A stretch of DNA of 60,797 bases from a virus. Below, piece after piece: positions 16,874-60,797 of the stretch. The DNA lies in IMG/VR virus record IMGVR_UViG_3300037357_000143, positions 1-60,797 of that record; one strand, given 5' to 3'. The position numbers and the translations under genes were made by a program. Within the stretch, counting starts at the first letter, position 1; the number at the start of each line of letters is the position of its first letter. The notes under the pieces were generated by a model, which made no database searches, was not told where the DNA came from, and saw only the letters and a program-made list of their open reading frames with translations.

Positions 16874-17944
16874 ATGATAATAGGAAGATACGACGAGAAA
16901 TTCCATTTCAAAGAGGTATTTAATACTGAGACTGGTTTCTCTGTCCGAACTGGAATATTAGATGAAAATGGTGAAGAGACGGAAGAAAACCCCTTCCAAT
17001 CTTCTTTCCCCCCACTCCTTGATATAGGCGTATGTGGAACGTGTAATACTGGTTTAAACGGCAAATGTAATGTTAAATGTTATCAATCAGGAAATGTCAA
17101 GCAAGAACCTAATATGAGTCTAAACGATTTTCGTGAGATTATATGCCAAGCAGAAAAGGGAGGAACTTTTCAAATAGCTATCGGGGGCAGAGGTGACCCC
17201 AATAAACATGAAGACTTCGAGAGATTGCTCCGTTATGCCCGGCGTAGTAATATTGTGCCAAATTATACTACCAGTGGATATGAATTAACAGACCGTGAAG
17301 TCGAAATAACAGGGAAACATGTGGGCGCAGTGGCAGTAAGTGAACATTTTGCTCAATATACTAGAGAGGCAATCGAAAATTTCGTAGCTGAAGGTGTGAA
17401 AACGAATCTACATTACGTTTTAAGTAACGACACAATCGGTAATGCTATAGAAATGTTGAAGAATGATGGTTTTGATAGGGGACTAAATGCAGTAATATTC
17501 CTTCTTTATAAACCAGTTGGGCTACAAAAAACTCTCTCTTCTATTTTAACACCGGATGATCCGATGGTAAAGGAGTTTTTCCAATTGATAGATAAGGAGA
17601 GTTATGATTTTAAAATAGGGTTAGATTCTTGTTCAACTCCTGGGGTTTTTAATTTCACCAAGAACATAAATAGAGACAGTATAGATGGTTGTGAAGCGGG
17701 TTTATTTTCCGCTTTTGTCACTCCTGATATGTTTTTACTACCATGTAGCTTTGAGCAAGACCGAAAGTATGCAGTTAATCTTCGAGAATTTACAATTCAA
17801 GAAGCATGGGATAGTCCAGAGTTTGAAGATTTTAGAAGTAAATTAAAAAAACAATGTCCAAAGTGTGAAAATCACGAAGATTGTAGTATATGCCCAATTG
17901 TACCAGAAATAACATTATGTAACAGAACTGAAAAGGAAATTTGA
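16874..17944 (+). CDS. radical SAM/SPASM-like protein with variant Cys motif, 356 aa
   Basis: The N-terminal cluster reads CGTCNTGLNGKCNVKCYQSG, a variant of the CxxxCxxC motif of radical SAM enzymes: the third Cys position is Ser and two Cys precede the core. Then IAIGGRGDPNKHEDF (SAM-binding GGE-like region). The C-terminal half has LPCSF and CPKCENHEDCSICP, resembling SPASM auxiliary-cluster ligands. Such enzymes often modify peptides. Follows the coiled-coil zinc protein directly and lies 20 bases before a DFVTNSSSTCY protein. Substrate unknown. Confidence 0.7.
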   Translation: MIIGRYDEKFHFKEVFNTETGFSVRTGILDENGEETEENPFQSSFPPLLDIGVCGTCNTGLNGKCNVKCYQSGNVKQEPNMSLNDFREIICQAEKGGTFQIAIGGRGDPNKHEDFERLLRYARRSNIVPNYTTSGYELTDREVEITGKHVGAVAVSEHFAQYTREAIENFVAEGVKTNLHYVLSNDTIGNAIEMLKNDGFDRGLNAVIFLLYKPVGLQKTLSSILTPDDPMVKEFFQLIDKESYDFKIGLDSCSTPGVFNFTKNINRDSIDGCEAGLFSAFVTPDMFLLPCSFEQDRKYAVNLREFTIQEAWDSPEFEDFRSKLKKQCPKCENHEDCSICPIVPEITLCNRTEKEI

Positions 17945-17963
17945 ATATTTGGAGGAATAAAAA

Positions 17964-18479
17964 ATGAGCAAGTACAAGTTGGATTTTGTCACGAATAGTA
18001 GTAGTACGTGTTATGTGTGCGAAATAACCGGAGAAAGAGAATCAGGAATGGACGCAGATGCCGAAGATTTAGGTTTTTATTTATGTTCAAATGGGCATGA
18101 ATATTTAGAAAAATACCGGCTCGACCATAAGAAATTTTTCCCTAAAGAAAAGGCAATAGAATTTTTAGAAGAAATAATAAAAGAAAGTAAGTGCACAGAT
18201 AAAACAGGGCGTTATAAAGAATACTTAGAAAAACTAAAAATAGATAATGAATTCGCAGATGAAATAATTGGAGATTTAACGGAAGAAAGAAGCTTCGGCC
18301 GATGTTCTGATGGTGATGGCTCGACGATTCTTTGTCCAATTTGTCAAATGGAATACATTCGAGATAAAGATATGCTTAAATTTTTCTTAAAATTAAATGG
18401 CAAAAGGGAAGATGTTGTTAAATTAATGAAAGCGCAATACCCTACTTACGAAGATATGAGAAGGGATTTAGATGGATAG
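17964..18479 (+). CDS. DFVTNSSST-motif protein 1, 171 aa
   Basis: Preceded by GGAGGAAT. Starts MSKYKLDFVTNSSSTCYVCE; the same DFVTNSSSTCY occurs in the protein at 19081. Later Cys pairs (CSNGHEY, CPICQMEY) look like a zinc ribbon. N-termini of this DFVTNSSS type occur in many uncharacterised proteins (from memory). Position right after a radical SAM gene suggests the motif could be a recognition or modification site; that is inference. Confidence 0.65.
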   Translation: MSKYKLDFVTNSSSTCYVCEITGERESGMDADAEDLGFYLCSNGHEYLEKYRLDHKKFFPKEKAIEFLEEIIKESKCTDKTGRYKEYLEKLKIDNEFADEIIGDLTEERSFGRCSDGDGSTILCPICQMEYIRDKDMLKFFLKLNGKREDVVKLMKAQYPTYEDMRRDLDG

Positions 18480-18849
18480 TGACCCTCCTCTATGGATTAA
18501 AGAATATGCACGGAGAGCGATAGAAGCTCACATAAGTCGTGGGTTCTTTGTTGATATGGGACAGAAACAATTAATTGAATTCATCAATGAGAATTTAGAA
18601 CATGGTTGTAATTATTGCGGTTGTGAACTTAAATACATTGATACCAATTCATCTAAAATAAAACCGTGGGATATTGACCCACATTGCATAAGCCTTGATA
18701 TTATTAATCCCAAGAACCGTAGTTTAAATAGAAAAAATATTCAACTTCTATGTCATGAGTGTAATCTAACTAAAGGACACCATAATCATCAAGAACATAT
18801 AAAATATTGCAGAGATTTGGCGGTTAGATTTGGAGAAGCGTGGGGATAA
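18472..18849 (+). CDS. HNH endonuclease, Cys4 type, 125 aa
   Basis: CNYCGCELKY then DPHCISLDIINPKNRS and CHECNLTKGHHN: the beta-beta-alpha-metal core of HNH nucleases with a Cys4 zinc site. Likely a free-standing homing or accessory nuclease. Its start overlaps the previous gene by eight bases and it separates the two DFVTNSSST proteins. Confidence 0.7.
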   Translation: MDSDPPLWIKEYARRAIEAHISRGFFVDMGQKQLIEFINENLEHGCNYCGCELKYIDTNSSKIKPWDIDPHCISLDIINPKNRSLNRKNIQLLCHECNLTKGHHNHQEHIKYCRDLAVRFGEAWG

Positions 18850-18899
18850 TTTTAAATAACATAAAAAACAAATAATATAATAGTGGAGGTTAGATGTAA

Positions 18900-19115
18900 A
18901 TGTATATAAAAGAAGAAAATAACAATTGTAAGTGTTGTGGGGGAAGAGGGACACAATTTAATCATAAAACTGGTTTAACAGTTCATTGTCCTTGTTGCCT
19001 TGGAACTGGGAAAGAGAATAATTTCAAAAAAGATCGAATTATATGGGAAGGAAAACCGCTTACTGGGAATTTGATGGAATATGGTGCGAGTGAAAAGAGA
19101 TTTTGTTACAAATAG
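18900..19115 (+). CDS. DnaJ-type zinc-finger small protein, 71 aa
   Basis: GGAGGT lies 15 bases before the ATG. CKCCGGRGTQ and CPCCLGTGK are two CxxCxGxG repeats, as in the zinc-binding domain of DnaJ and related anti-TRAP-like proteins. No J domain. The C-terminus overlaps the start of the next gene. Two further small CxxCxGxG proteins occur in the tRNA region (57134 and 60445). Confidence 0.6.
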   Translation: MYIKEENNNCKCCGGRGTQFNHKTGLTVHCPCCLGTGKENNFKKDRIIWEGKPLTGNLMEYGASEKRFCYK

Positions 19116-19437
19116 TAGCTCAACATGTTATATAATTACGAATAAAACAAATAAAGATCTTGAGTTAGAAGAATTTGTAAAAGAAAACCCTCAATTATTA
19201 AAACAATTTCTTAGAGAATATAATTGGTATGCAAGGGAAAAAGAATTTAATCCTGAAATGATGATTTCTTGTGCTAAAAAAAGAGAACGGCTAAAATCAG
19301 GAATTAATTACAGGGAATTTGGAGATCATAATGATCCAGTAGATAATGATGTTCTTGGCCATGTGTTTGATTATATTTTACGCAAAAATGGAGAATCAAA
19401 ACGATTTAAATGGGAATTTGATTATTTTAATAGGTGA
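19081..19437 (+). CDS. DFVTNSSST-motif protein 2, 118 aa
   Basis: Starts MVRVKRDFVTNSSSTCYIIT, sharing 11 consecutive residues with the protein at 17964 while the rest is unrelated: no Cys pairs here, a helical C-terminal part. GTG codons at 19084 and 19090 are alternative starts. The shared N-terminal motif implies a common processing, modification or targeting signal. Confidence 0.6.
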   Translation: MVRVKRDFVTNSSSTCYIITNKTNKDLELEEFVKENPQLLKQFLREYNWYAREKEFNPEMMISCAKKRERLKSGINYREFGDHNDPVDNDVLGHVFDYILRKNGESKRFKWEFDYFNR

Positions 19438-19445
19438 TAAGAAAG

Positions 19446-21227
19446 ATGTATGTAGAATTATACGACTCAGATACAATAGATGGTTGGATTGATTGCCCAT
19501 TTAAATATGATGAGGAACTGGTAAATATATTTAGGAAGCAACCTAAAAGAACTTATGATGGTGCTCGTCGTATTTGGTCTATCCCAAAAGATGGTGTAAG
19601 TCATCTTATAGCTGATTGTAAAAAGGCAAGTATAGATGTTATAGATAAACGTGGGAATGGTGAAAAAGCAAACCATAATATGGCCGTTACTATTCGGAAC
19701 GATGGTTTTATCACTAATTTTGGTGAAGTTAAAGTACGTCCTGAAATGAGTCGTATGTATTACCTCAAAAGACCTCGTGATGGATATAGGGTTGCTGAAA
19801 TTCTAAATGCCGAAGGGTTTAAGGTTAAGGTTAAAGATAAAGTAAAAAATAATCCAATTAAGATGCATCCAAACGTTCAGTTATATCCATTTCAAGAAGA
19901 ATGTATGCAATTCTTACGCCAAAATGATTATAACGGTTTAGTTGCCCTCGATATAGGTTTAGGAAAGACAATGGTGTCCTGTAAGGCTATTGAAGAAATA
20001 GGAAAGGGCCCAGTCCTCGTGGTTGCGCCCTCCTCTCTATTATATCAATGGAAAGAGGAAATGGAAACTAAATTCAGTTATATGAATGCGACAGTAGTAA
20101 CAAGTAAAATAAAAGCGGAAGATAGATTAGAAGCAGTAGAACGAGCACTTAAAGGCGGGATAATGATAACTAATTATGAATTTCTTCGCACCATTCCTAT
20201 TAAATTCCAAGTAGAACTGTTAATTCTTGACGAAGCTCATAGAGTTAGAAACTGGAATACAAAGACTGCAAAAGTGATAGGAAATATTCCTGCACGTCAC
20301 GTAATTGGCCTTACTGGGACTCCAATAGTTAATCATTTGAAAGAATTATATCATATAACAGATCAGATAAAGCCGGGATTTTTTGGAACTATGAAGAGTT
20401 TCTATGGGAAATATGTGAATAAAGATGGGTATAAATCAACATATAAAGATTTAGAAGGTGTCTATGAAAGATTAAATGACTTGATGTATCGTAAAAGAAA
20501 ACAAGATGTATTAATGCAATTGCCTAAACGCATTACACAAACAATATATGTTCAGCTTACAAAACAAGAGAGAGATTTTTATGAAGATATGTTAGCTTCC
20601 CAACCTCATATTTTAGCAGCGATTTCAAACGCGAAGGTATTTGGTGTGTCTTCAACACTTAGGATTGAGAAGTTAGATATGTCTTCAAAAGAAAAAGAAT
20701 TAATGACTGTTTTAAATGAATTACATGGACAAATTATATTATTTTGTGAGTCTAAGACAGAGGTTAAACGATTAGGAGAAATGGATTTAAAAAGAGAATC
20801 ATTTGTATTACATGGTGATTCAAATAAAGAACAGAGAGAAACGGTGAGAAAGAAATTCCGTGATTCATCAGATGGAATTCTTTTAATGACCGAGATAGGA
20901 ACAGAAGGTCTTAATTTACAATATGCAGGTAATCTTATTAATTTTTCAATACCCTGGACTTATTCAGCATTGGAGCAAAGAATAGGTAGAATTGAAAGAT
21001 TAGGAAGCGACTTCGATACGGTAAATGTGGTTAATATGCTTACAGATAATACGATCGATAATCATGTTTCGGAAGTTGTGGCGGACAAAGCTCATTTATT
21101 TAATATGACAGTGGATGGAGCAAAACAAGAAGTATCGAGGAAATTTGCTAGTGACTTATTCAGCATGGGTATAAAAGTCAATAGCGATGGTTTCTTAAGT
21201 AGAGTTAAGGAAAAGGTGAAAGCATGA
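19446..21227 (+). CDS. SNF2-family helicase, SMARCAL1-like, 593 aa
   Basis: AGGTGAT precedes ATG 19446 (the upstream GTG is part of that site). Residues about 1-60 resemble a HARP-type annealing-helicase domain (CPFKYDEELVNIFRK, RIWSIP). The motor carries Walker A DIGLGKT, Walker B DEAH (LILDEAHRVRN), TGTPI and the C-terminal EGLNLQYA and QRIGRIERLG motifs, all intact. A complete SF2 translocase that may remodel forks or branched DNA during virus replication. Confidence 0.9.
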   Translation: MYVELYDSDTIDGWIDCPFKYDEELVNIFRKQPKRTYDGARRIWSIPKDGVSHLIADCKKASIDVIDKRGNGEKANHNMAVTIRNDGFITNFGEVKVRPEMSRMYYLKRPRDGYRVAEILNAEGFKVKVKDKVKNNPIKMHPNVQLYPFQEECMQFLRQNDYNGLVALDIGLGKTMVSCKAIEEIGKGPVLVVAPSSLLYQWKEEMETKFSYMNATVVTSKIKAEDRLEAVERALKGGIMITNYEFLRTIPIKFQVELLILDEAHRVRNWNTKTAKVIGNIPARHVIGLTGTPIVNHLKELYHITDQIKPGFFGTMKSFYGKYVNKDGYKSTYKDLEGVYERLNDLMYRKRKQDVLMQLPKRITQTIYVQLTKQERDFYEDMLASQPHILAAISNAKVFGVSSTLRIEKLDMSSKEKELMTVLNELHGQIILFCESKTEVKRLGEMDLKRESFVLHGDSNKEQRETVRKKFRDSSDGILLMTEIGTEGLNLQYAGNLINFSIPWTYSALEQRIGRIERLGSDFDTVNVVNMLTDNTIDNHVSEVVADKAHLFNMTVDGAKQEVSRKFASDLFSMGIKVNSDGFLSRVKEKVKA

Positions 21228-55235: not shown

Positions 55236-55307
55236 ACTGCCGTAGTCCAACGGAAGGACGGTTGGCTTTGGACCAGCTAATGTCGGGTTCAAGTCCCACC
55301 GGCAGTA
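55236..55307 (+). tRNA. tRNA-Gln(TTG)
   Basis: Acceptor ACTGCCG/CGGCAGT pairs fully; D stem GTCC/GGAC; anticodon loop CTTTGGA gives UUG. The T stem (TCGGG/CCCAC) has two mismatches, but the loop TTCAAGT is normal. No encoded CCA. Confidence 0.85.
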
Positions 55308-55309
55308 TA

Positions 55310-55381
55310 TGCGGCGTAGAAAATTGAATATTCGACAGGCTCATGACCTGTAGAGAGTCGGTTTGATTCCGACCGTCGCAA
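55310..55381 (+). tRNA. tRNA-Met-type (CAT)
   Basis: Acceptor TGCGGCG/CGTCGCA; anticodon arm ACAGG-CTCATGA-CCTGT. The D arm is weak (GAA/TTC) and lacks the usual GG, so folding is unusual. It lacks the A1-U72 of archaeal initiators. Elongator Met or Ile(CAT) cannot be told apart here. Confidence 0.75.
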
Positions 55382-55383
55382 TT

Positions 55384-55456
55384 GGGGCTGTGGTGTAATT
55401 GGCTAGCATGTTGCCCTGTCACGGCATCGATTCGGGATCGTACCCCGGCGGCCCCG
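55384..55456 (+). tRNA. tRNA-Asp(GTC)
   Basis: Acceptor GGGGCTG/CGGCCCC; anticodon loop CTGTCAC. The T loop reads ATCGTAC instead of a TTC start, and one anticodon-stem pair is T-T. Confidence 0.8.
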
Positions 55457-55458
55457 TT

Positions 55459-55555
55459 GTGAGGATAGCTTAACGAGTAAAGCACTTTTAAATAGTCTTA
55501 GTATAGACATATACTTATTTAAAGGAAGATGGAGGTGCAAGTCCTCCTCTGAACA
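55459..55555 (+). tRNA. tRNA-like RNA with extended anticodon arm
   Basis: D stem GCTT/AAGC, a perfect T arm GGAGG-TGCAAGT-CCTCC and five of seven acceptor pairs are tRNA-like. In place of a normal anticodon arm there is a long helix, CTTTTAAATA paired to TATTTAAAGG, capped by a further hairpin. No bulge-helix-bulge intron could be drawn, so no anticodon is assigned. An alternative fold gives a loop TTTAAAT (TAA). Confidence 0.5.
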
Positions 55556-55559
55556 CTTT

Positions 55560-55634
55560 GGGTCGGTGGCCTAGTCTGATTAAGGCGAGGGACTTTTAAT
55601 CCCTAGATCGGGAGTTCAAATCTCCCTCGACTCA
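55560..55634 (+). tRNA. tRNA-Lys(TTT)
   Basis: Acceptor GGGTCGG/TCGACTC (two G-T pairs), anticodon arm AGGGA-CTTTTAA-TCCCT, T arm GGGAG-TTCAAAT-CTCCC. Confidence 0.9.
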
Positions 55635-55641
55635 CTTTATT

Positions 55642-55715
55642 TGCTATCTTAGTCTAGCAGCAAGGACGACGGACTTTCACTTCGTTAACGAGGGTGCAAC
55701 TCCCTCAGATAGCAT
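55642..55715 (+). tRNA. tRNA-Glu(TTC)
   Basis: Acceptor TGCTATC/GATAGCA; anticodon arm ACGGA-CTTTCAC-TTCGT. Confidence 0.85.
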
Positions 55716-55717
55716 TA

Positions 55718-55788
55718 CCCTGCGTGGGAGCGGCCTCCCAGATGGGCTGTAGACTCATCCTCTGCCGGATCGACACCGGTCGTCGGGA
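55718..55788 (+). tRNA. tRNA-Tyr(GTA)
   Basis: Acceptor CCCTGCG/CGTCGGG with C1-G72, the archaeal/eukaryal Tyr identity pair rather than the bacterial G1-C72. Anticodon arm ATGGG-CTGTAGA-CTCAT. D stem GGGAG/CTCCC. Short variable loop, again unlike bacterial tRNA-Tyr. Confidence 0.85.
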
Positions 55789-55790
55789 TT

Positions 55791-55825
55791 AGCTCCTCCA
55801 ATAATTTTATCAGTGAGGAGGGGCT
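55791..55825 (+). other. hairpin after tRNA-Tyr
   Basis: Nine pairs between AGCTCCTCC and GGAGGGGCT around a 17-base loop, then a weak T tract. May act in termination or processing. Confidence 0.5.
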
Positions 55826-55832
55826 TTAATTT

Positions 55833-55906
55833 GCCTGCGAGGCCATATTAGAATTGGTGGCAGCCTTGTAAGCTGTTTGTTGTGGGGGCAGATCCCACCG
55901 TAGGCT
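55833..55906 (+). tRNA. tRNA-Thr(TGT)
   Basis: Acceptor GCCTGCG/CGTAGGC; anticodon arm GCAGC-CTTGTAA-GCTGT. Confidence 0.9.
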
Positions 55907-55911
55907 CATTT

Positions 55912-55983
55912 GCCTTTGTAGTACAATTGGTAGTATGTCAGACTGTTAATCTGAAGATGCAGGTTCGAGCCCTGTCGTTGGCG
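55912..55983 (+). tRNA. tRNA-Asn(GTT)
   Basis: Anticodon arm TCAGA-CTGTTAA-TCTGA and T arm GCAGG-TTCGAGC-CCTGT are perfect. The acceptor GCCTTTG/CGTTGGC has two T-T mismatches. Confidence 0.85.
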
Positions 55984-55986
55984 CTT

Positions 55987-56071
55987 AACGGAGTGTTAGG
56001 GAGTCTGGTTAACCTTACCGGCTTAAGACCGGTGCTTAGTGCAATCGCGAGTTCAAATCTCGTCTCCGTTA
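55987..56071 (+). tRNA. tRNA-Leu(TAA)
   Basis: Acceptor AACGGAG/CTCCGTT; anticodon arm ACCGG-CTTAAGA-CCGGT; long variable arm typical of Leu. Confidence 0.9.
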
Positions 56072-56093
56072 TTTAATTAAAAATGAGCAAAAG

Positions 56094-56100
56094 TATATAA
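56094..56100 (+). promoter_or_regulatory. TATA box of a gene inside the tRNA array
   Basis: TATATAA lies about 26 bases before ATG 56126, implying a leaderless or nearly leaderless mRNA. Confidence 0.5.
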
Positions 56101-56125
56101 AGGATCACTCAGATAATTGAGTAAC

Positions 56126-56347
56126 ATGAAAGATATTGATGAAGCAATAAATGATTACAATCAAAATAAATTTAAAGATTGGAATCAAGAAGATGTAGTA
56201 ACTTTTGATATTGAGAATGATCTTACTGGAAAAACTATTACAGTTATTTTAAGTGGAGACTTTATCACTGTTAAAAATTGCCGAGATAAAATTCTTCATG
56301 GATTTCATTGGCAGCAAGGTAGTCTAAGAAGAGAAACAATAAAATAG
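56126..56347 (+). CDS. small hypothetical protein within the tRNA array, 73 aa
   Basis: No Shine-Dalgarno; the TATA box at 56094 points to leaderless ATG 56126 (a TTG at 56117 would lie up to the expected transcription start). Acidic, with YNQNKFKDWNQEDVVTF. Its stop overlaps the first base of tRNA-Leu(TAG). Confidence 0.55.
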   Translation: MKDIDEAINDYNQNKFKDWNQEDVVTFDIENDLTGKTITVILSGDFITVKNCRDKILHGFHWQQGSLRRETIK

Positions 56348-56428
56348 GTGCTGTGGTGGAGAGGTCTAACACGTCGGGTTTAGGACCCGAGCATAGCGCA
56401 AACGCAAGTTCGAATCTTGTCAGCACCA
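56347..56428 (+). tRNA. tRNA-Leu(TAG)
   Basis: Acceptor GGTGCTG/CAGCACC; anticodon arm TCGGG-TTTAGGA-CCCGA; long variable arm. Confidence 0.9.
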
Positions 56429-56466
56429 TTGGTGCAACGAGTTTAGCGGGTTCCTAATTCACCAAT
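56428..56466 (+). other. 39-nt hairpin starting at the tRNA-Leu discriminator
   Basis: ATTGGTG/CACCAAT, seven perfect pairs around a 25-base loop, beginning at the discriminator base of the upstream tRNA. A hairpin of the same size follows tRNA-Trp. Confidence 0.55.
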
Positions 56467-56527
56467 CAAAAACAAAAAACTGCGAGGAGCTTAGATATTC
56501 ACCTCTTTAAAAAAGAAAATCACCATT

Positions 56528-56603
56528 GTAGAGGTAGTTCAGTTGCGAGAACGCTGGTTTTGCAAATCAGAGGCCGCGGGTTGGAGTCCCGTCCTTTACA
56601 CCA
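56528..56603 (+). tRNA. tRNA-Ala(TGC) with encoded CCA
   Basis: Acceptor GTAGAGG/CCTTTAC, discriminator A at 56600 and CCA at 56601-56603, the only clear encoded CCA in the array. Anticodon arm CTGGT-TTTGCAA-ATCAG. The acceptor has A3-T70 instead of the Ala identity pair G3-U70; a G-T pair lies at 4-69. Confidence 0.8.
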
Positions 56604-56676
56604 GGGCGCGAAGTATCTATGGCGATACACCCGGCTCCAGACCGGGAGGAGGCGAGTTCGAACCTCGTCGGGCCCA
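56604..56676 (+). tRNA. tRNA-Trp(CCA)
   Basis: Begins directly after the Ala CCA. Acceptor GGGCGCG/CGGGCCC with one mismatch; D stem GTAT/ATAC; anticodon arm CCCGG-CTCCAGA-CCGGG. No intron, unlike many archaeal tRNA-Trp genes. Confidence 0.88.
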
Positions 56677-56714
56677 TCGGGGTTATTTCGTTAATGGTGA
56701 CCTTTCTCCCCGAT
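56676..56714 (+). other. 39-nt hairpin starting at the tRNA-Trp discriminator
   Basis: ATCGGGG/CCCCGAT, seven perfect pairs around a 25-base loop; same geometry as 56428-56466 with a different sequence. Confidence 0.55.
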
Positions 56715-56741
56715 CAAAAGAAATGGAACCTGGAGGCGGTA

Positions 56742-56761
56742 GCCCGAATGAAAATTCGGGC
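56742..56761 (+). other. perfect GNRA-tetraloop hairpin
   Basis: GCCCGAAT/ATTCGGGC with a GAAA loop, five bases before tRNA-Pro. Very stable; may be a processing or packing element. Confidence 0.65.
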
Positions 56762-56766
56762 ATTTA

Positions 56767-56842
56767 GGGATTGTGGTCTAGTCTGGTTTAGGATTGGGCG
56801 TTTGGAACGCTTAGGTCGCTGGTTCGAATCCAGCCAATCCCA
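56767..56842 (+). tRNA. tRNA-Pro(TGG)
   Basis: Acceptor GGGATTG/CAATCCC; anticodon arm GGGCG-TTTGGAA-CGCTT. Confidence 0.9.
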
Positions 56843-56845
56843 TTT

Positions 56846-56947
56846 GTGGTTCAGTGTAAGTCTTATATTAAAACAATGACTTCCTCGGAGAGGTTGGAGA
56901 AGAATATGAGCATTATGAGGGGATGGTTCAAATCCATCCGCCACTCA
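56846..56947 (+). tRNA. degenerate tRNA-like sequence, isotype not assigned
   Basis: A good T arm (GATGG-TTCAAAT-CCATC) and a partial acceptor (GTGG with CCAC) remain. Between them lie hairpins AAGTC/GACTT and CTTCCTCGG/TTGGAGAAG but no normal anticodon arm. Could be a tRNA pseudogene or an unusual structured RNA. Confidence 0.35.
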
Positions 56948-56955
56948 ATCATAAT

Positions 56956-57028
56956 GGCGCATGTAGTGTAACGGTTAGCACTCGAGGTTGTGATCCTCGC
57001 AGACGGAGCTCATCTCTCCGCTTGTGCC
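56956..57028 (+). tRNA. tRNA-His(GTG)
   Basis: Extra G at -1 (56956) facing C73 (57028), the hallmark of tRNA-His, here genome-encoded. Acceptor GCGCATG/CTTGTGC with one mismatch and one G-T pair; anticodon arm CGAGG-TTGTGAT-CCTCG. Confidence 0.88.
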
Positions 57029-57037
57029 CTCAATATA

Positions 57038-57109
57038 GAGCCGATAGCTTAACAGGGAAAGTCTGTCGCTGAAGACGGCAAGTCGGTGGTTCAAGTCCTC
57101 CTCGGCTCA
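57038..57109 (+). tRNA. tRNA-Phe(GAA)
   Basis: Acceptor GAGCCGA/TCGGCTC; D stem starts GCTT; anticodon arm TGTCG-CTGAAGA-CGGCA. One T-T mismatch in the T stem. Confidence 0.88.
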
Positions 57110-57133
57110 TTAGGTGATGATTATGAAATAATC

Positions 57134-57298
57134 ATGAAAATCTGTAAAAATTGTAATGGCGAAGGGATTATTAGGATCCCAAGAAGAAAGTATGTTATAA
57201 AACCAGAGCTAGACCCTTGGGATTATAGTGGATATTTTAACGGTAGAAGTTATCATATGAGAGTTTGTAAAAATTGTAATGGTAAAGGTGAAATATGA
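57134..57298 (+). CDS. CxxCxGxG zinc-finger protein, 54 aa
   Basis: CKNCNGEG and CKNCNGKGEI frame a 35-residue loop, the DnaJ-type zinc finger. ATG 57134 is chosen because the frame further upstream lies in tRNA-Phe. ATGA overlap with the next gene. Confidence 0.6.
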   Translation: MKICKNCNGEGIIRIPRRKYVIKPELDPWDYSGYFNGRSYHMRVCKNCNGKGEI

Positions 57299-57612
57299 GT
57301 AACTGGGAAATACATAAAGACAATTTTATTTACTGTTTGGCTAATAAAATATTTGAATTGAGGCCATGTGACATTGAATCTATTAACTTTGGATATTTCA
57401 GGGTAAATTTTGATAATTTAGATGAAGTGCAAAAGATATATATAGATGAAATTGAATTAAAGGTAAATGATTTTCATTTAGATGAATATGATTTTAAAGT
57501 TAATGGTGACTTGTCATTATCTGGTGTTCGTGTTGAGCAAATCTATTCATCTGATGGTGAATTAAGGATTACGTTGTATGATAAATTAGGAAATACATGG
57601 GAGATATATTGA
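57295..57612 (+). CDS. hypothetical protein, 105 aa
   Basis: Coupled by ATGA; AAGGTG site. Beta-rich acidic protein (DLSLSGVRVEQIYSSDGELRI). Function unknown. Abuts the next ATG. Confidence 0.6.
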   Translation: MSNWEIHKDNFIYCLANKIFELRPCDIESINFGYFRVNFDNLDEVQKIYIDEIELKVNDFHLDEYDFKVNGDLSLSGVRVEQIYSSDGELRITLYDKLGNTWEIY

Positions 57613-57813
57613 ATGAAATTGCCTTCAAAATATAAAATAGATTTGCCGGATATTCCAATAATCGAAAGTCATTTTAGAGATTCTGTTGTGTGTGCAGCTT
57701 GCCACCAATATATATTGGTCGAGAAGAATAATAATTTTACAAACGAAAAACATATATATCATTATGCAGAGATGATTGGTTATGATAGTAGATCTATTAA
57801 AAGGAAAAATTGA
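57613..57813 (+). CDS. small hypothetical protein, 66 aa
   Basis: Starts one codon after the previous gene. CAACHQYI suggests a zinc half-site; ends in basic SRSIKRKN. Overlaps the next gene. Confidence 0.5.
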   Translation: MKLPSKYKIDLPDIPIIESHFRDSVVCAACHQYILVEKNNNFTNEKHIYHYAEMIGYDSRSIKRKN

Positions 57814-58093
57814 AGATGAAGATAAAATCTATGGTTGTCTTTATGAGGTTCTTAGACCATGTTGTAACGATATGGATATTGGTTTAAAGTATCATCACAT
57901 TATAAGTAGTGGCATTGAAATGGAGATTCCTGACCATGAAGATAATGATTTTACTAAGCCAATTGAAGGTGGTTTAACTATATCTCATTGTCCTTGGTGT
58001 GGAGAAATAATTGCATGTCTTAACCCTTGGACCCCATTTAGAACGGCTGACATGCTTGATAAATTAGCACCAAAATCGTGTTTCTGGTTGTGA
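57782..58093 (+). CDS. hypothetical Cys/His protein, 103 aa
   Basis: ATG 57782 (an ATG at 57776 is in frame). CPWCGEIIACLNPW and RPCCNDMD give possible metal ligands; KYHHIISSG in the middle. Unknown. Confidence 0.55.
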   Translation: MIVDLLKGKIEDEDKIYGCLYEVLRPCCNDMDIGLKYHHIISSGIEMEIPDHEDNDFTKPIEGGLTISHCPWCGEIIACLNPWTPFRTADMLDKLAPKSCFWL

Positions 58094-58098
58094 TTAAA

Positions 58099-58584
58099 AT
58101 GGTTAAAATCCAATGTGAAAGTTGTAAAGAATTTAGAGAAGATACTATAATATGGAGACATGGAAATTATTGCCCAGATTGTAGTTTTGAGGATTATGAT
58201 ATGATAAAGGAGGAAAAAATGATTAAACCTTACCCTTATGAAGCGTATAGAAAAGCATTTAATTTAATGGTGGATGAAGCTGCCGAAATGTTTGACTTAT
58301 ATGAAGGAGATAAATTTACGATTGGATTTAATGCTTATGCTCCTTGGCAATTATTATACCTACAAGACGGTAATTGGCAACCAACAATTCGAATGTATGA
58401 AGATGATGATAACTTTAAATATTTTTGGGAGATGGCATATAGTGCAACACCTGCTTATGGGTGCTATTTAACTCTCAAAAAAGGAGATAGTCATTTTACT
58501 GAATTTCATGGAGAACGTTGTTATGCTAAGAATAAATATTTTGAATTTATGCCAACATTTATGTTAGAAAATAAAAGTGATTGA
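58099..58584 (+). CDS. zinc-ribbon plus unknown domain, 161 aa
   Basis: GTGAT selects ATG 58099. An N-terminal zinc ribbon (CESCKEF...YCPDC) is followed by a Trp/Tyr-rich alpha/beta domain (NAYAPWQLLYLQDGNWQP). Function unknown. Confidence 0.6.
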   Translation: MVKIQCESCKEFREDTIIWRHGNYCPDCSFEDYDMIKEEKMIKPYPYEAYRKAFNLMVDEAAEMFDLYEGDKFTIGFNAYAPWQLLYLQDGNWQPTIRMYEDDDNFKYFWEMAYSATPAYGCYLTLKKGDSHFTEFHGERCYAKNKYFEFMPTFMLENKSD

Positions 58585-58586
58585 AA

Positions 58587-58751
58587 ATGGATATTGATAA
58601 ATTCATTCTCCCTTATTTCTTTGGTAATCCTGATTGGGATTGTGAAATGGAAGTAAAAGAAGGGAAAAATGATTACGATATTGATATTAATTTTACTTTT
58701 ATTAAAAGAACACCAATTAAAACAATAGAATGCACAATTATAATAGAATAG
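58587..58751 (+). CDS. small hypothetical protein, 54 aa
   Basis: ATG after GTGATTGAAA. Acidic; ends next to tRNA-Arg with no gap. Unknown. Confidence 0.5.
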   Translation: MDIDKFILPYFFGNPDWDCEMEVKEGKNDYDIDINFTFIKRTPIKTIECTIIIE

Positions 58752-58821
58752 GGCTTATGGTGTAACAGAGAGCATTTAAGCCTTCGAAGCTTACGATCGG
58801 GGTGCAATTCCCCGTAAGCCT
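58752..58821 (+). tRNA. tRNA-Arg(TCG)
   Basis: Acceptor GGCTTAT/GTAAGCC; anticodon arm TAAGC-CTTCGAA-GCTTA. Confidence 0.88.
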
Positions 58822-58825
58822 ATTT

Positions 58826-58897
58826 GCCTCTATGACTGAATGGTAAGGTGCGTGGCTGCAAACCACGATTTCACAGGTTCGATTCCTGTTGGAGGCT
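58826..58897 (+). tRNA. tRNA-Cys(GCA)
   Basis: Acceptor GCCTCTA/TGGAGGC; anticodon arm CGTGG-CTGCAAA-CCACG. Confidence 0.9.
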
Positions 58898-58901
58898 TTA
58901 T

Positions 58902-58975
58902 GGATGTATGGGGTAGTTTGGTAGCCTACTGTTCTGATATAGCAGTCGTCGGCGGTTCGAATCCGTCTACATCCA
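58902..58975 (+). tRNA. tRNA-Ile(GAT)
   Basis: Acceptor GGATGTA/TACATCC; anticodon arm CTGTT-CTGATAT-AGCAG. Confidence 0.88.
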
Positions 58976-58979
58976 TTTA

Positions 58980-59054
58980 GGACGCTTAGCTTAGTTTGGT
59001 TAAAGCTGCGGGCTCATAACCCGACGATCGCCGATTCAAATTCGGTAGTGTCCA
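58980..59054 (+). tRNA. tRNA-(CAT), Ile2 or Met
   Basis: Acceptor GGACGCT/AGTGTCC; anticodon arm CGGG-CTCATAA-CCCG. The D arm and loop resemble archaeal tRNA-Ile(CAT), whose C34 would need host agmatidine modification; elongator or initiator Met cannot be excluded. Confidence 0.8.
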
Positions 59055-59056
59055 TT

Positions 59057-59223
59057 GCCGAGGTGGTGGAGTGGTTTATCATGCCGGACTGCTAAGGTGA
59101 AAGAGTATTATTGAGTAGGCGGCCTTGACGAAGGGTTTAGCTCTTAATTAACGCTTTTTTCACACCGCGGATATCCGGTGCTTTCCTTTAGGGAAGCCAT
59201 AGGTTCGAATCCTATTCTCGGCG
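59057..59223 (+). tRNA. tRNA-Ser(GCT) with 78-nt intron
   Basis: Acceptor GCCGAGG/TCTCGGC; exons join as CCGGA-CTGCTA|A-TCCGG with anticodon GCT. Intron 59095-59172 between positions 37 and 38. A canonical bulge-helix-bulge can be drawn: CTGC pairs GCGG, bulges TA|A and AT|A, inner helix GGTG/CACC. Long variable arm as expected for Ser. Needs the archaeal splicing endonuclease. Confidence 0.93.
59095..59172 (+). other. archaeal tRNA intron
   Basis: 78 bases at the canonical 37/38 position with both splice sites in three-base bulges separated by four pairs. Confidence 0.85.
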
Positions 59224-59225
59224 TT

Positions 59226-59471
59226 ATGAAAACAACATCAGAAGCATTTGAAAAATTAAATGAATCTATACGTGAATTAGGAAGAGCAATGTTTGAAGAT
59301 ATAGGGTATATTTTATGTGAATCTTCTTTTCGAATAGAAGTGGATGATAAATATTATAATGATAATCTTGACCTTATAAATAATTGTCCTTTATTCATAA
59401 AATTTAAAATATGGTTATCATGGAAATTATATCACTATGGGTGTGAATTCTATGGTAAAGGAATAGAATAA
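59226..59471 (+). CDS. small hypothetical protein, 81 aa
   Basis: ATG 59226 is just past tRNA-Ser. No strong ribosome binding site. Helical, Trp-rich C-terminus (FKIWLSWKLYHYGCEF). Unknown. Confidence 0.5.
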   Translation: MKTTSEAFEKLNESIRELGRAMFEDIGYILCESSFRIEVDDKYYNDNLDLINNCPLFIKFKIWLSWKLYHYGCEFYGKGIE

Positions 59472-59475
59472 TATA

Positions 59476-59558
59476 GCCGGCTTGACAGAGTGGTAATGTG
59501 ATGGATTGGAAATCCATGCTTCTTCGGGAGCTCGCTGGTCCGAATCCAGCAGTCGGCG
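59476..59558 (+). tRNA. tRNA-Ser(GGA)
   Basis: Acceptor GCCGGCT/AGTCGGC; anticodon arm ATGGA-TTGGAAA-TCCAT; long variable arm. Confidence 0.9.
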
Positions 59559-59560
59559 TT

Positions 59561-59649
59561 GCGTCGGTGCTAGAATCAGGTTAATAGGCTCGGCTTGAGA
59601 CCGAGAGCCTCGTAAAAAGGGCATCCAGGTTCGAATCCTGGTCGGCGCG
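59561..59649 (+). tRNA. tRNA-Ser(TGA)
   Basis: Acceptor GCGTCGG/TCGGCGC; anticodon arm CTCGG-CTTGAGA-CCGAG; long variable arm; T arm CCAGG-TTCGAAT-CCTGG. Confidence 0.92.
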
Positions 59650-59658
59650 TTTAAATTT

Positions 59659-59730
59659 TCCCTCGTAGCATAATGGAATTGCTTTCGACTTCTAATCGAA
59701 CGAATGGGGGTTCGAATCCCCTCGAGGGAG
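59659..59730 (+). tRNA. tRNA-Arg(TCT)
   Basis: Acceptor TCCCTCG/CGAGGGA; anticodon arm TTCGA-CTTCTAA-TCGAA. Confidence 0.9.
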
Positions 59731-59734
59731 CTTA

Positions 59735-59807
59735 GCGACCTTAGTTTAACTGGTTAAAACTCCTCATTGCCAATGAGAAGATTTGGGTTCGAGTCCCAGA
59801 GGTTGCA
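59735..59807 (+). tRNA. tRNA-Gly(GCC)
   Basis: Acceptor GCGACCT/AGGTTGC; anticodon loop TTGCCAA within CCTCA/TGAGA (one mismatch). Confidence 0.88.
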
Positions 59808-59808
59808 T

Positions 59809-59988
59809 ATGTTTGCTATATTGATAGATGGTAAAAATGAATTACTCGAATTAATTGACGATGAAAATTGGGAACTCCATGATTTAATTATTTCCAATGA
59901 CAAATGGTATTATATATTAGATATTGAAAAACTAAGTGAAAATACTGTTAGATATAAAGTCGAAAAAATAGAAAGAGAGAGAAAATGA
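59809..59988 (+). CDS. small hypothetical protein, 59 aa
   Basis: ATG 59809 follows tRNA-Gly by one base, without a ribosome binding site. Acidic. ATGA overlap with the next gene. Confidence 0.5.
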   Translation: MFAILIDGKNELLELIDDENWELHDLIISNDKWYYILDIEKLSENTVRYKVEKIERERK

Positions 59989-60341
59989 GATTTAGAATGA
60001 GTGATAAACCATTTTCATTTAGAAAAGGGGATACTATCTGGACTTACGATCATTGGTCTATCTATATGATTGATGAGAATGAAGAAAATGTTTTGGATCG
60101 AGAAAAACTTGTGGCTGTATTTATTGGAGGCGATAGGTTTGGAGAGACCCCAAAAGACCTTGCTCCTTTACTTGCTGGCGATTATTGTGAATTTTTGAAC
60201 TCCAAATATTTAGACAAAGAAATGAACGCCGAGTGGGGTAAAGTAGATGTCGAGGCAAGGATTAAATATCATGAGGAGCAAATAAAAATATTAAAGACTG
60301 GAGAATATTATTGGAACAAAAATGGGGACGGAGTAGAATAA
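59985..60341 (+). CDS. hypothetical protein, 118 aa
   Basis: Coupled by ATGA. Contains RKGDTIWTYDHWSIYMIDE and a helical acidic end (MNAEWGKVDVEARIKYHEEQ). Unknown. Confidence 0.6.
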   Translation: MRFRMSDKPFSFRKGDTIWTYDHWSIYMIDENEENVLDREKLVAVFIGGDRFGETPKDLAPLLAGDYCEFLNSKYLDKEMNAEWGKVDVEARIKYHEEQIKILKTGEYYWNKNGDGVE

Positions 60342-60368
60342 GTGAAAGTTCAGGGAAGATTTAAACAA

Positions 60369-60441
60369 GCGTGATTAGTGACAATGGTTAACACCCGACG
60401 CTTCCAACGTCGGAATAGGAGTTCAAATCTCCGTGAGGGCA
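60369..60441 (+). tRNA. tRNA-Gly(TCC) with defective acceptor stem
   Basis: Anticodon arm CGACG-CTTCCAA-CGTCG is perfect and the T loop is normal, but the acceptor strands GCGTGAT and TGAGGGC form only three of seven pairs. An intact Gly(TCC) gene lies at 60725. Probably a decaying copy, or an RNA with another role. Confidence 0.6.
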
Positions 60442-60444
60442 TTT

Positions 60445-60501
60445 ATGATATGTACAAAATGTAAAGGAAGAGGTGAAATAATTGATGCGTATGGGTTTTA
60501 G
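60445..60501 (+). CDS. 18-aa CxxCxGxG micro-ORF
   Basis: MICTKCKGRGEIIDAYGF holds a single DnaJ-type half zinc finger. No ribosome binding site; overlaps the next gene. It may be a genuine micro-protein or a remnant of a longer zinc-finger gene. Confidence 0.3.
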   Translation: MICTKCKGRGEIIDAYGF

Positions 60502-60721
60502 AAGACCAGCATTGAATGTAAAACAAACATTTATTCCCAATGGGCGTTTAAAACAGTTTATTGAGCCAAATAAAAGGTTGGAGAAAGAAGAAATGGCAAG
60601 AGTACCAATACATTGTAAATTATGTGGATATTATGGAAATATAATTGTTAAAGAAAGATTCCGTAATGGTGTTTTATATTATTGTCATGAATGTGATGAA
60701 GATTTTGTAAGAGAAAGTTAA
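60485..60721 (+). CDS. zinc-ribbon protein, 78 aa
   Basis: AGAGGTGAAAT lies upstream of ATG 60485 (TTG 60482 also in frame). Basic N-terminus, then CKLCGYYGNI...YYCHECDEDF zinc ribbon. Function unknown. Confidence 0.6.
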   Translation: MRMGFRRPALNVKQTFIPNGRLKQFIEPNKRLEKEEMARVPIHCKLCGYYGNIIVKERFRNGVLYYCHECDEDFVRES

Positions 60722-60724
60722 TTT

Positions 60725-60795
60725 GCGTCTTTGGTCTAATGGTATGATACAGGGCTTCCAACTCTGTGATGGGGGATCGTTACCCTCAAGACGCA
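60725..60795 (+). tRNA. tRNA-Gly(TCC)
   Basis: Acceptor GCGTCTT/AAGACGC perfect; anticodon arm CAGGG-CTTCCAA-CTCTG. The array probably continues beyond the window edge. Confidence 0.9.
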
Positions 60796-60797
60796 TT

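Follow-up and report, generated by a model that had tools for sequence, protein, structure and literature searches.

The locus and its genes

Why should two unrelated proteins of one virus begin with the same residues, just downstream of a radical SAM gene, and does the enzyme act on that shared start? The question is raised by a run of plus-strand genes, some of them overlapping, in a 60.8 kb virus contig (the window, by which we mean the whole stretch of DNA analyzed). The run comprises a radical SAM/SPASM gene followed by two tagged genes (first A, then B), with an HNH-like and a small CxxC gene between them, as follows:

16874..17944, + strand: radical SAM/SPASM protein, 356 aa (PF13186; phrog_7293, 4e-26; AF2; Foldseek)
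17964..18014, + strand: N-terminal tag MSKYKLDFVTNSSSTCY of tagged protein A (motif and consensus; residues 1-10 with mean pLDDT 47)
17964..18479, + strand: tagged protein A, 171 aa, Zn-ribbon-like body (C..C..NGH..CPICQ)
18472..18849, + strand: HNH endonuclease-like ORF, untagged (phrog_1035, endonuclease VII, 1.3e-7)
18900..19115, + strand: CxxC-rich ORF, 71 aa, untagged, overlapping the start of tagged protein B
19081..19131, + strand: N-terminal tag MVRVKRDFVTNSSSTCY of tagged protein B
19081..19437, + strand: tagged protein B, 118 aa, body ..NPQL..FGD..FDYxLR..

The sequence-only reading of this locus had claimed that two otherwise unrelated proteins start with an identical motif and that the first lies just after a radical SAM/SPASM-like gene. 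Both claims were borne out. Only 19 bases separate the radical SAM stop (17944) from the first tagged start (17964), and the bodies of A and B fell into separate clusters of 44 and 21 members, the latter without a known family. The motif DFVTNSSSTCY occupies residues 7-17 of both proteins, whose starts read ..[KR]x[K]xDFVTNSSSTCY.., and occurs only these two times in the whole record. It is identical in both, as claimed, but the tag proved to be about 16 residues long rather than 11.

The HNH-like ORF, which sits between the tagged genes and overlaps the end of tagged protein A, probably lies outside the tag/enzyme system. Tagged gene B overlaps its neighbours on both sides. Directly after it, a 597-aa ORF (19434-21227) reads as an SNF2-type helicase; a relative of this ORF is present in another locus (L011), where a homologue of tagged protein A was also found. 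The right end of the window (55236-60796) is a block of 23 tRNA genes with small ORFs interspersed.

The conserved stretch always stands at the start codon, as might be expected if it were a nucleic-acid signal for translation or RNA processing. However, 5 of the 11 codons of the 33-base motif differ between A and B, all synonymously, indicating selection at the protein level, and synonymous codons vary just as freely across genomes. A signal acting at the RNA level was rejected on this ground, and the chance left to it is negligible.

Sequence and distribution of the tag

A scan for exact DFVTNSSSTCY recovered 8 viral stretches; the motif stood at protein starts in all of them, and many carried several tagged genes. 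Wider viral scans for D- and G-type starts gave at least 120 matches each, and a scan of cellular genomes gave at least 117 tag stretches, from Clostridia, Bacteroidota, Proteobacteria, spirochaetes, Verrucomicrobia, candidate phyla and archaea. At least 731 tagged ORFs (676 distinct) were recovered. These counts of tags and loci are samples of the collections, not totals, and the sequences are not independent. The tag was N-terminal in every recovered tagged ORF; eleven tags that seemed to lie elsewhere belonged to ORFs with over-long starts and had an in-frame MK at the tag.

The consensus was M-K-[IV]-[RK]-x-[DG]-F-V-[ST]-N-S-S-S-x-S-[FY]-[IV], the tag extending from Lys2 through the aromatic residue at position 16; the window tags have one additional residue after Met. 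Scanning the collected loci with a tag profile yielded 513 distinct tags, whereas a control of 120 random viral loci (1.02 Mb) contained none, so that chance coincidence could be rejected. Since the scan patterns fix some positions, conservation was recounted on 129 tags matched by no scan pattern. R/K4 was present in 129/129, and K/R2, aromatic7, N10, S11, S12 and aromatic16 in 128/129 each.

No model in Pfam or NCBIfam covered the tag. PHROG family 7397 (function not assigned) matched 25 of the 80 tagged proteins scanned, probably through the tag itself. Searches of GenBank phages by tblastn with the short tag or with tagged protein A gave nothing useful.

The proteins carrying the tag ranged from about 46 to 919 aa, with a median of 135 aa in viral loci and the upper limit reached in cells. 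Without the tag their bodies formed 153 clusters at E<1e-3 (106 singletons). Pfam gave few matches on 80 tagged proteins, among them LRR, BRCT, beta-propeller and STAS-like. The body family of A occurs on both D- and G-type tags, and in that family the tag is the most conserved part, with F8, N11, S12 and S13 invariant. The model of tagged protein A predicted a confidently folded body preceded by a poorly ordered start (mean pLDDT 47 for residues 1-10), and a PDB fold search with this protein gave no match. A tag that is conserved yet predicted to be disordered shows the pattern of a recognition or modification site.

The shared start could also be no tag at all but merely the opening strand of an ancient fold retained by distant homologues, and in the model of A the C-terminal end of the motif does run into the first beta-strand of the body. 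On the other hand, residues 1-10 were disordered in the single body modelled, and bodies as different as LRR, BRCT, beta-propeller and Zn-ribbon are found among the clusters. Moreover, one type of cellular operon encodes an untagged homologue of the tagged protein in the preceding gene (hhalign probability 94.8). A common fold was rejected on the number of clusters and remains very improbable.

Association of the tag with the radical SAM enzyme

The enzyme was detected with an iterated profile of the family of the window enzyme. Of the cellular tag loci, fragments of at most 8 kb, 95 of 117 contained it; for the viral tag loci, also fragments, the figures among the matches listed were 62/117 (D-type) and 37/119 (G-type). 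The same profile found nothing in 120 random viral loci. Because the viral loci are fragments, whole virus records were searched. The enzyme was found in 26/37 and 16/36 records of two tag-bearing sets, mostly picked because the fragment lacked it. Of the tag-bearing records 100 kb or longer, 27 of 31 had it; none of 41 random whole virus records contained it. The four large records without the enzyme in the sequence at hand count against the pairing. All ten tag-bearing cellular genomes tested had the enzyme.

The association also held starting from the enzyme, which makes the less ambiguous test. Among 249 genomes of one phylum, 7 had the enzyme and 3 the exact tag pattern, all 3 within the 7 (hypergeometric probability, calculated by hand, about 1.4e-5, rising to 4.9e-4 when the centre genome is left out). 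Fifteen cellular genomes were picked by enzyme, these 7 and 8 from the order around a Lacrimispora genome, and a tagged ORF adjoined the enzyme gene in 14 of them (11/12 after excluding three genomes first found by their tag). The one genome without an adjacent tag had the weakest full-length enzyme match. Cellular genomes seldom carry the enzyme: when 392 and 397 genomes from two other phyla were sampled, only the centre genome had it. Of 118 tag genes at cellular loci, 75 lay within 100 bp of the enzyme gene on the same strand, on either side, and only 1 was on the opposite strand. The co-occurrence of motif and radical SAM genes across genomes, which the initial reading had left to be checked, was thus very strong in both directions, with empty controls.

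Sequence and predicted fold of the enzyme

The window enzyme matched the SPASM family PF13186 at E=2.5e-6, above the family cut-off. It has the three [4Fe-4S] cluster cysteines required for radical SAM membership, C57, C65 and C69, spaced C-x7-C-x3-C and invariant in 73/73 homologues; the spacing itself varies among homologues (roughly C-x3 to 12-C-x2 to 8-C) and is not CX3CX2C. Auxiliary-cluster cysteines were identified at C253, C273, C291 and C331 plus C328, C337, C340 and C349, and these eight, together with PF13186, satisfy the description of a SPASM protein with two auxiliary clusters. Seven cysteines were invariant in 73/73 homologues, and four further ones that complete the SPASM domain were present in about 55-65%. 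About 45% of the homologues, including G-type phage enzymes, lack C337/C340/C349 and have only the four invariant auxiliary cysteines or few more. Since the second SPASM half is absent from the G-type phage and other enzymes, a single chemistry for all is not assured.

The AlphaFold model of the enzyme had a pLDDT of 94, and its closest PDB structures by Foldseek were SuiB (1e-13), anSME, PqqE, SkfB, CteB and TigE, in agreement with a profile search. As judged from the model, the fold is that of peptide- and protein-modifying SPASM enzymes. The NCBIfam radical SAM peptide maturases (PqqE, MftC, PapB, KxxxW, His-Xaa-Ser and others) did not reach their cut-offs; the tag enzyme stayed far below every curated one, the best scores being 43 bits against 380 for the window enzyme and 69.6 against 265 for a cellular relative. 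The PHROG family matched, phrog_7293, has no assigned function. A search for relatives with patterns taken from the window radical SAM protein alone found none, the patterns being too specific; motif patterns worked.

In one locus (L092, 3795-6131) a member of the enzyme family is interrupted by an apparent intein, giving a 778-aa ORF. A second radical SAM type (VNWLLTRKCNLxCxYCAI; L005 1077-2108, also L089, L093, L098, L116 and L119) lies a few bases from tagged genes in D-type large phages, in some cases together with the main enzyme.

Tag and enzyme might merely travel together, the tag being a docking or localisation signal for some other factor and the enzyme having its substrate elsewhere. 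Both lie in accessory phage regions and the chemistry has not been shown, which leaves room for this explanation. It does not readily account for the fact that tag and enzyme lie side by side and almost always occur together, in phages as in bacteria and archaea and despite differing neighbours, nor for an enzyme with a peptide-modifier fold, and we consider it quite unlikely.

Agreement of tag variants with the enzyme tree

A tree was built from 159 enzymes, each being given the variant of its nearest tag as state, and the number of state changes was compared with 200 shuffles. D/G changed 5 times (shuffle minimum 25), T/S 4 times (minimum 30) and R/K 9 times (minimum 31). On the trees of three body families the D/G changes numbered 6, 10 and 3 against shuffle means of 12.8, 14.2 and 6.0, a much weaker departure than on the enzyme tree. 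Among loci with several tags, 163 of 167 used one tag type throughout. On these comparisons of sequences, the tag variant follows the enzyme more than the body. Because independent changes of tag state are few, part of the agreement may simply reflect phage lineages inheriting tag and enzyme together.

Proposed role of the enzyme

We propose that a dedicated radical SAM/SPASM enzyme modifies the N-terminal tag on several unrelated proteins of the same genome, a reading to which we give a probability of about 0.8. The pairing, its generality, the N-terminal position of the tag, its agreement with the enzyme rather than the body and the peptide-modifying fold of the enzyme are findings of the comparisons and the model above; the action of the enzyme on the tag is inferred, no modified residue having been observed. 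The suggestion of a viral peptide-modification system made at the outset is supported by the pairing, the tree agreement and the conserved, disordered tag. Its restriction to viruses did not hold, since the system is also found in bacteria and archaea, and modification remains an inference.

The enzyme would bind the flexible 16-residue N-terminus, and a SAM-derived radical would modify the tag after translation. As a speculative first guess, the radical may cross-link or oxidize the tag between its invariant aromatic residues 7 and 16, with Asn10/Ser11/Ser12 as the most likely participants. Two fixed aromatic residues nine positions apart around N-S-S would suit a cross-link, to which we give about half of the likelihood; the Ser run would suit oxidation as by anSME, given about a fifth, and other chemistry takes the remainder, all by inference. 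The modified N-terminus might then be a common handle that recruits a partner, or might anchor or protect small accessory proteins of the phage; cellular NACHT-type conflict operons might make use of it as well. Both roles are speculative.

Alternatively, the tag may be a leader at which the enzyme docks in order to modify the body or C-terminus, as in many RiPPs. A conserved leader with a variable follower is the usual RiPP layout, and at the C-terminus one cellular body family has an invariant Trp, another the sequence DLSY. However, no further conserved feature runs through the 153 body clusters, of about 46 to 919 aa, and a RiPP leader would not require such fixed aromatic and Ser residues. 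We regard modification outside the tag as unlikely, although less so than the other alternatives considered here, and retain the tag as the preferred site.

A broader form of the proposal is a general tagging system in which one radical SAM enzyme per genome places the same unusual modification on a short N-terminal code found on many unrelated proteins, among the accessory proteins of large phages and in the NACHT-type immune operons of bacteria and archaea, and thus on both sides of the conflict between phage and host. This extension is tentative, and somewhat less probable than its failure.

Comparison with known systems

SuiB, SkfB, CteB, PqqE and anSME resemble the window enzyme in fold and iron-sulfur layout, and their genes likewise adjoin the substrate gene. 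SuiB contains a RiPP recognition element (RRE), a statement that concerns SuiB only and not the window enzyme. Peptide-modifying SPASM enzymes act on one short precursor peptide, whereas the tag system comprises many unrelated folded proteins; radical SAM chemistry usually serves a single precursor or enzyme target. In the RiPP systems with one leader and many cores (nif11- and NHLP-type), an invariant N-terminus precedes a variable follower and one enzyme has several substrates. The tag system shares these properties. It differs from such leaders in that the tag has only about 16 residues, the followers reach 919 aa and are mostly of unknown family, and the tag itself looks, by inference, like the modification site. 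The short precursor typical of RiPPs is not met either, given the size range of the tagged proteins and the folded body of the one modelled.

The nearest precedent is found in the FtsH-ternary vWA-MoxR conflict systems, in which a radical SAM protein has been suggested as the modifier of a peptide effector encoded by a gene of its own (Kaur 2020, PMC7159879). The core machinery of those systems differs from that described here, and the passage concerned mentions no N-terminal tag. Searches of full-text literature with the motif strings gave no relevant paper among the matches listed. Those for phage or NACHT radical SAM proteins gave only the vWA-MoxR remark, few subscription journals being covered and other names possibly escaping. 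Within the same limits of coverage and naming, no description of tag and enzyme as a system was found in the literature and family libraries searched. The pair is very probably an undescribed protein-modifying system, modification being inferred. It would extend the known radical SAM modification of peptides, and would be new in kind if the tag is a general protein code.

If the proposal is true, more than 100 kinds of protein, from phages and cells alike, are directed to one radical SAM enzyme by a short N-terminal code. This would be a new route to diversify protein function and a transferable tag for protein engineering, and it would offer a starting point for the many phage proteins whose function is unknown.

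Genomic contexts in phages and cells

Among GenBank phages the enzyme family corresponds to the RB16/RB43 group (Pseudotevenvirus), whose radical SAM protein, phrog_7293, is a homologue of the window enzyme with 27% identity. As in the window, these phages encode two tagged proteins (GFVSNSSS) alongside the enzyme; in RB16, however, the tagged genes do not adjoin the enzyme gene but are separated from it by about 20 kb. The tagged RB16 proteins p106 and p111 and the radical SAM protein p156 matched 174, 175 and 174 of 50,697 records, respectively, and the three sets had the same organism make-up, that of one lineage. Since RB16 and RB43 are well studied and carry tag and enzyme, tests are within easy reach. 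A VWFA-like gene, RB16p109, lies between the RB16 tagged genes (L503 3421-5640; RB16 67920-70139), which is worth recording given the vWA-MoxR systems with radical SAM proteins.

In about 24 cellular loci, from archaea and many bacterial phyla, tag and enzyme belong to a four-gene operon that encodes a STAND/NACHT NTPase, an untagged paralogue of about 130 aa, a tagged protein ending in Trp and the radical SAM enzyme (L253 4397-7998, L255, L261, L264, L282, L294, L331, L346 and others). Sulfurimonas and Xanthobacter provide examples of such operons. The NTPases have variable N-terminal domains, trypsin-like in some. They are related to Avs2, a defence NTPase of the Avs2/bNACHT STAND type, and PADLOC gave partial Avs2 matches (7e-21 and 2e-22). 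Nevertheless, the NTPases stay below the Avs2 cut-off (59.9 bits against 1000 for the NCBIfam equivalog), and the operons add the tagged, radical SAM and untagged paralogue genes. This arrangement suggests an undescribed, Avs-like operon of the defence type, protection being inferred from gene context only, and the link between STAND/NACHT operon and tag poses a directly testable question of immunity.

A different arrangement, Lachnospiraceae-type, was seen in L266 (1293-1658) and ten other cellular loci, in which a small HTH_3 regulator accompanies the enzyme and a tagged protein that in many cases belongs to the '..DLSY' family.
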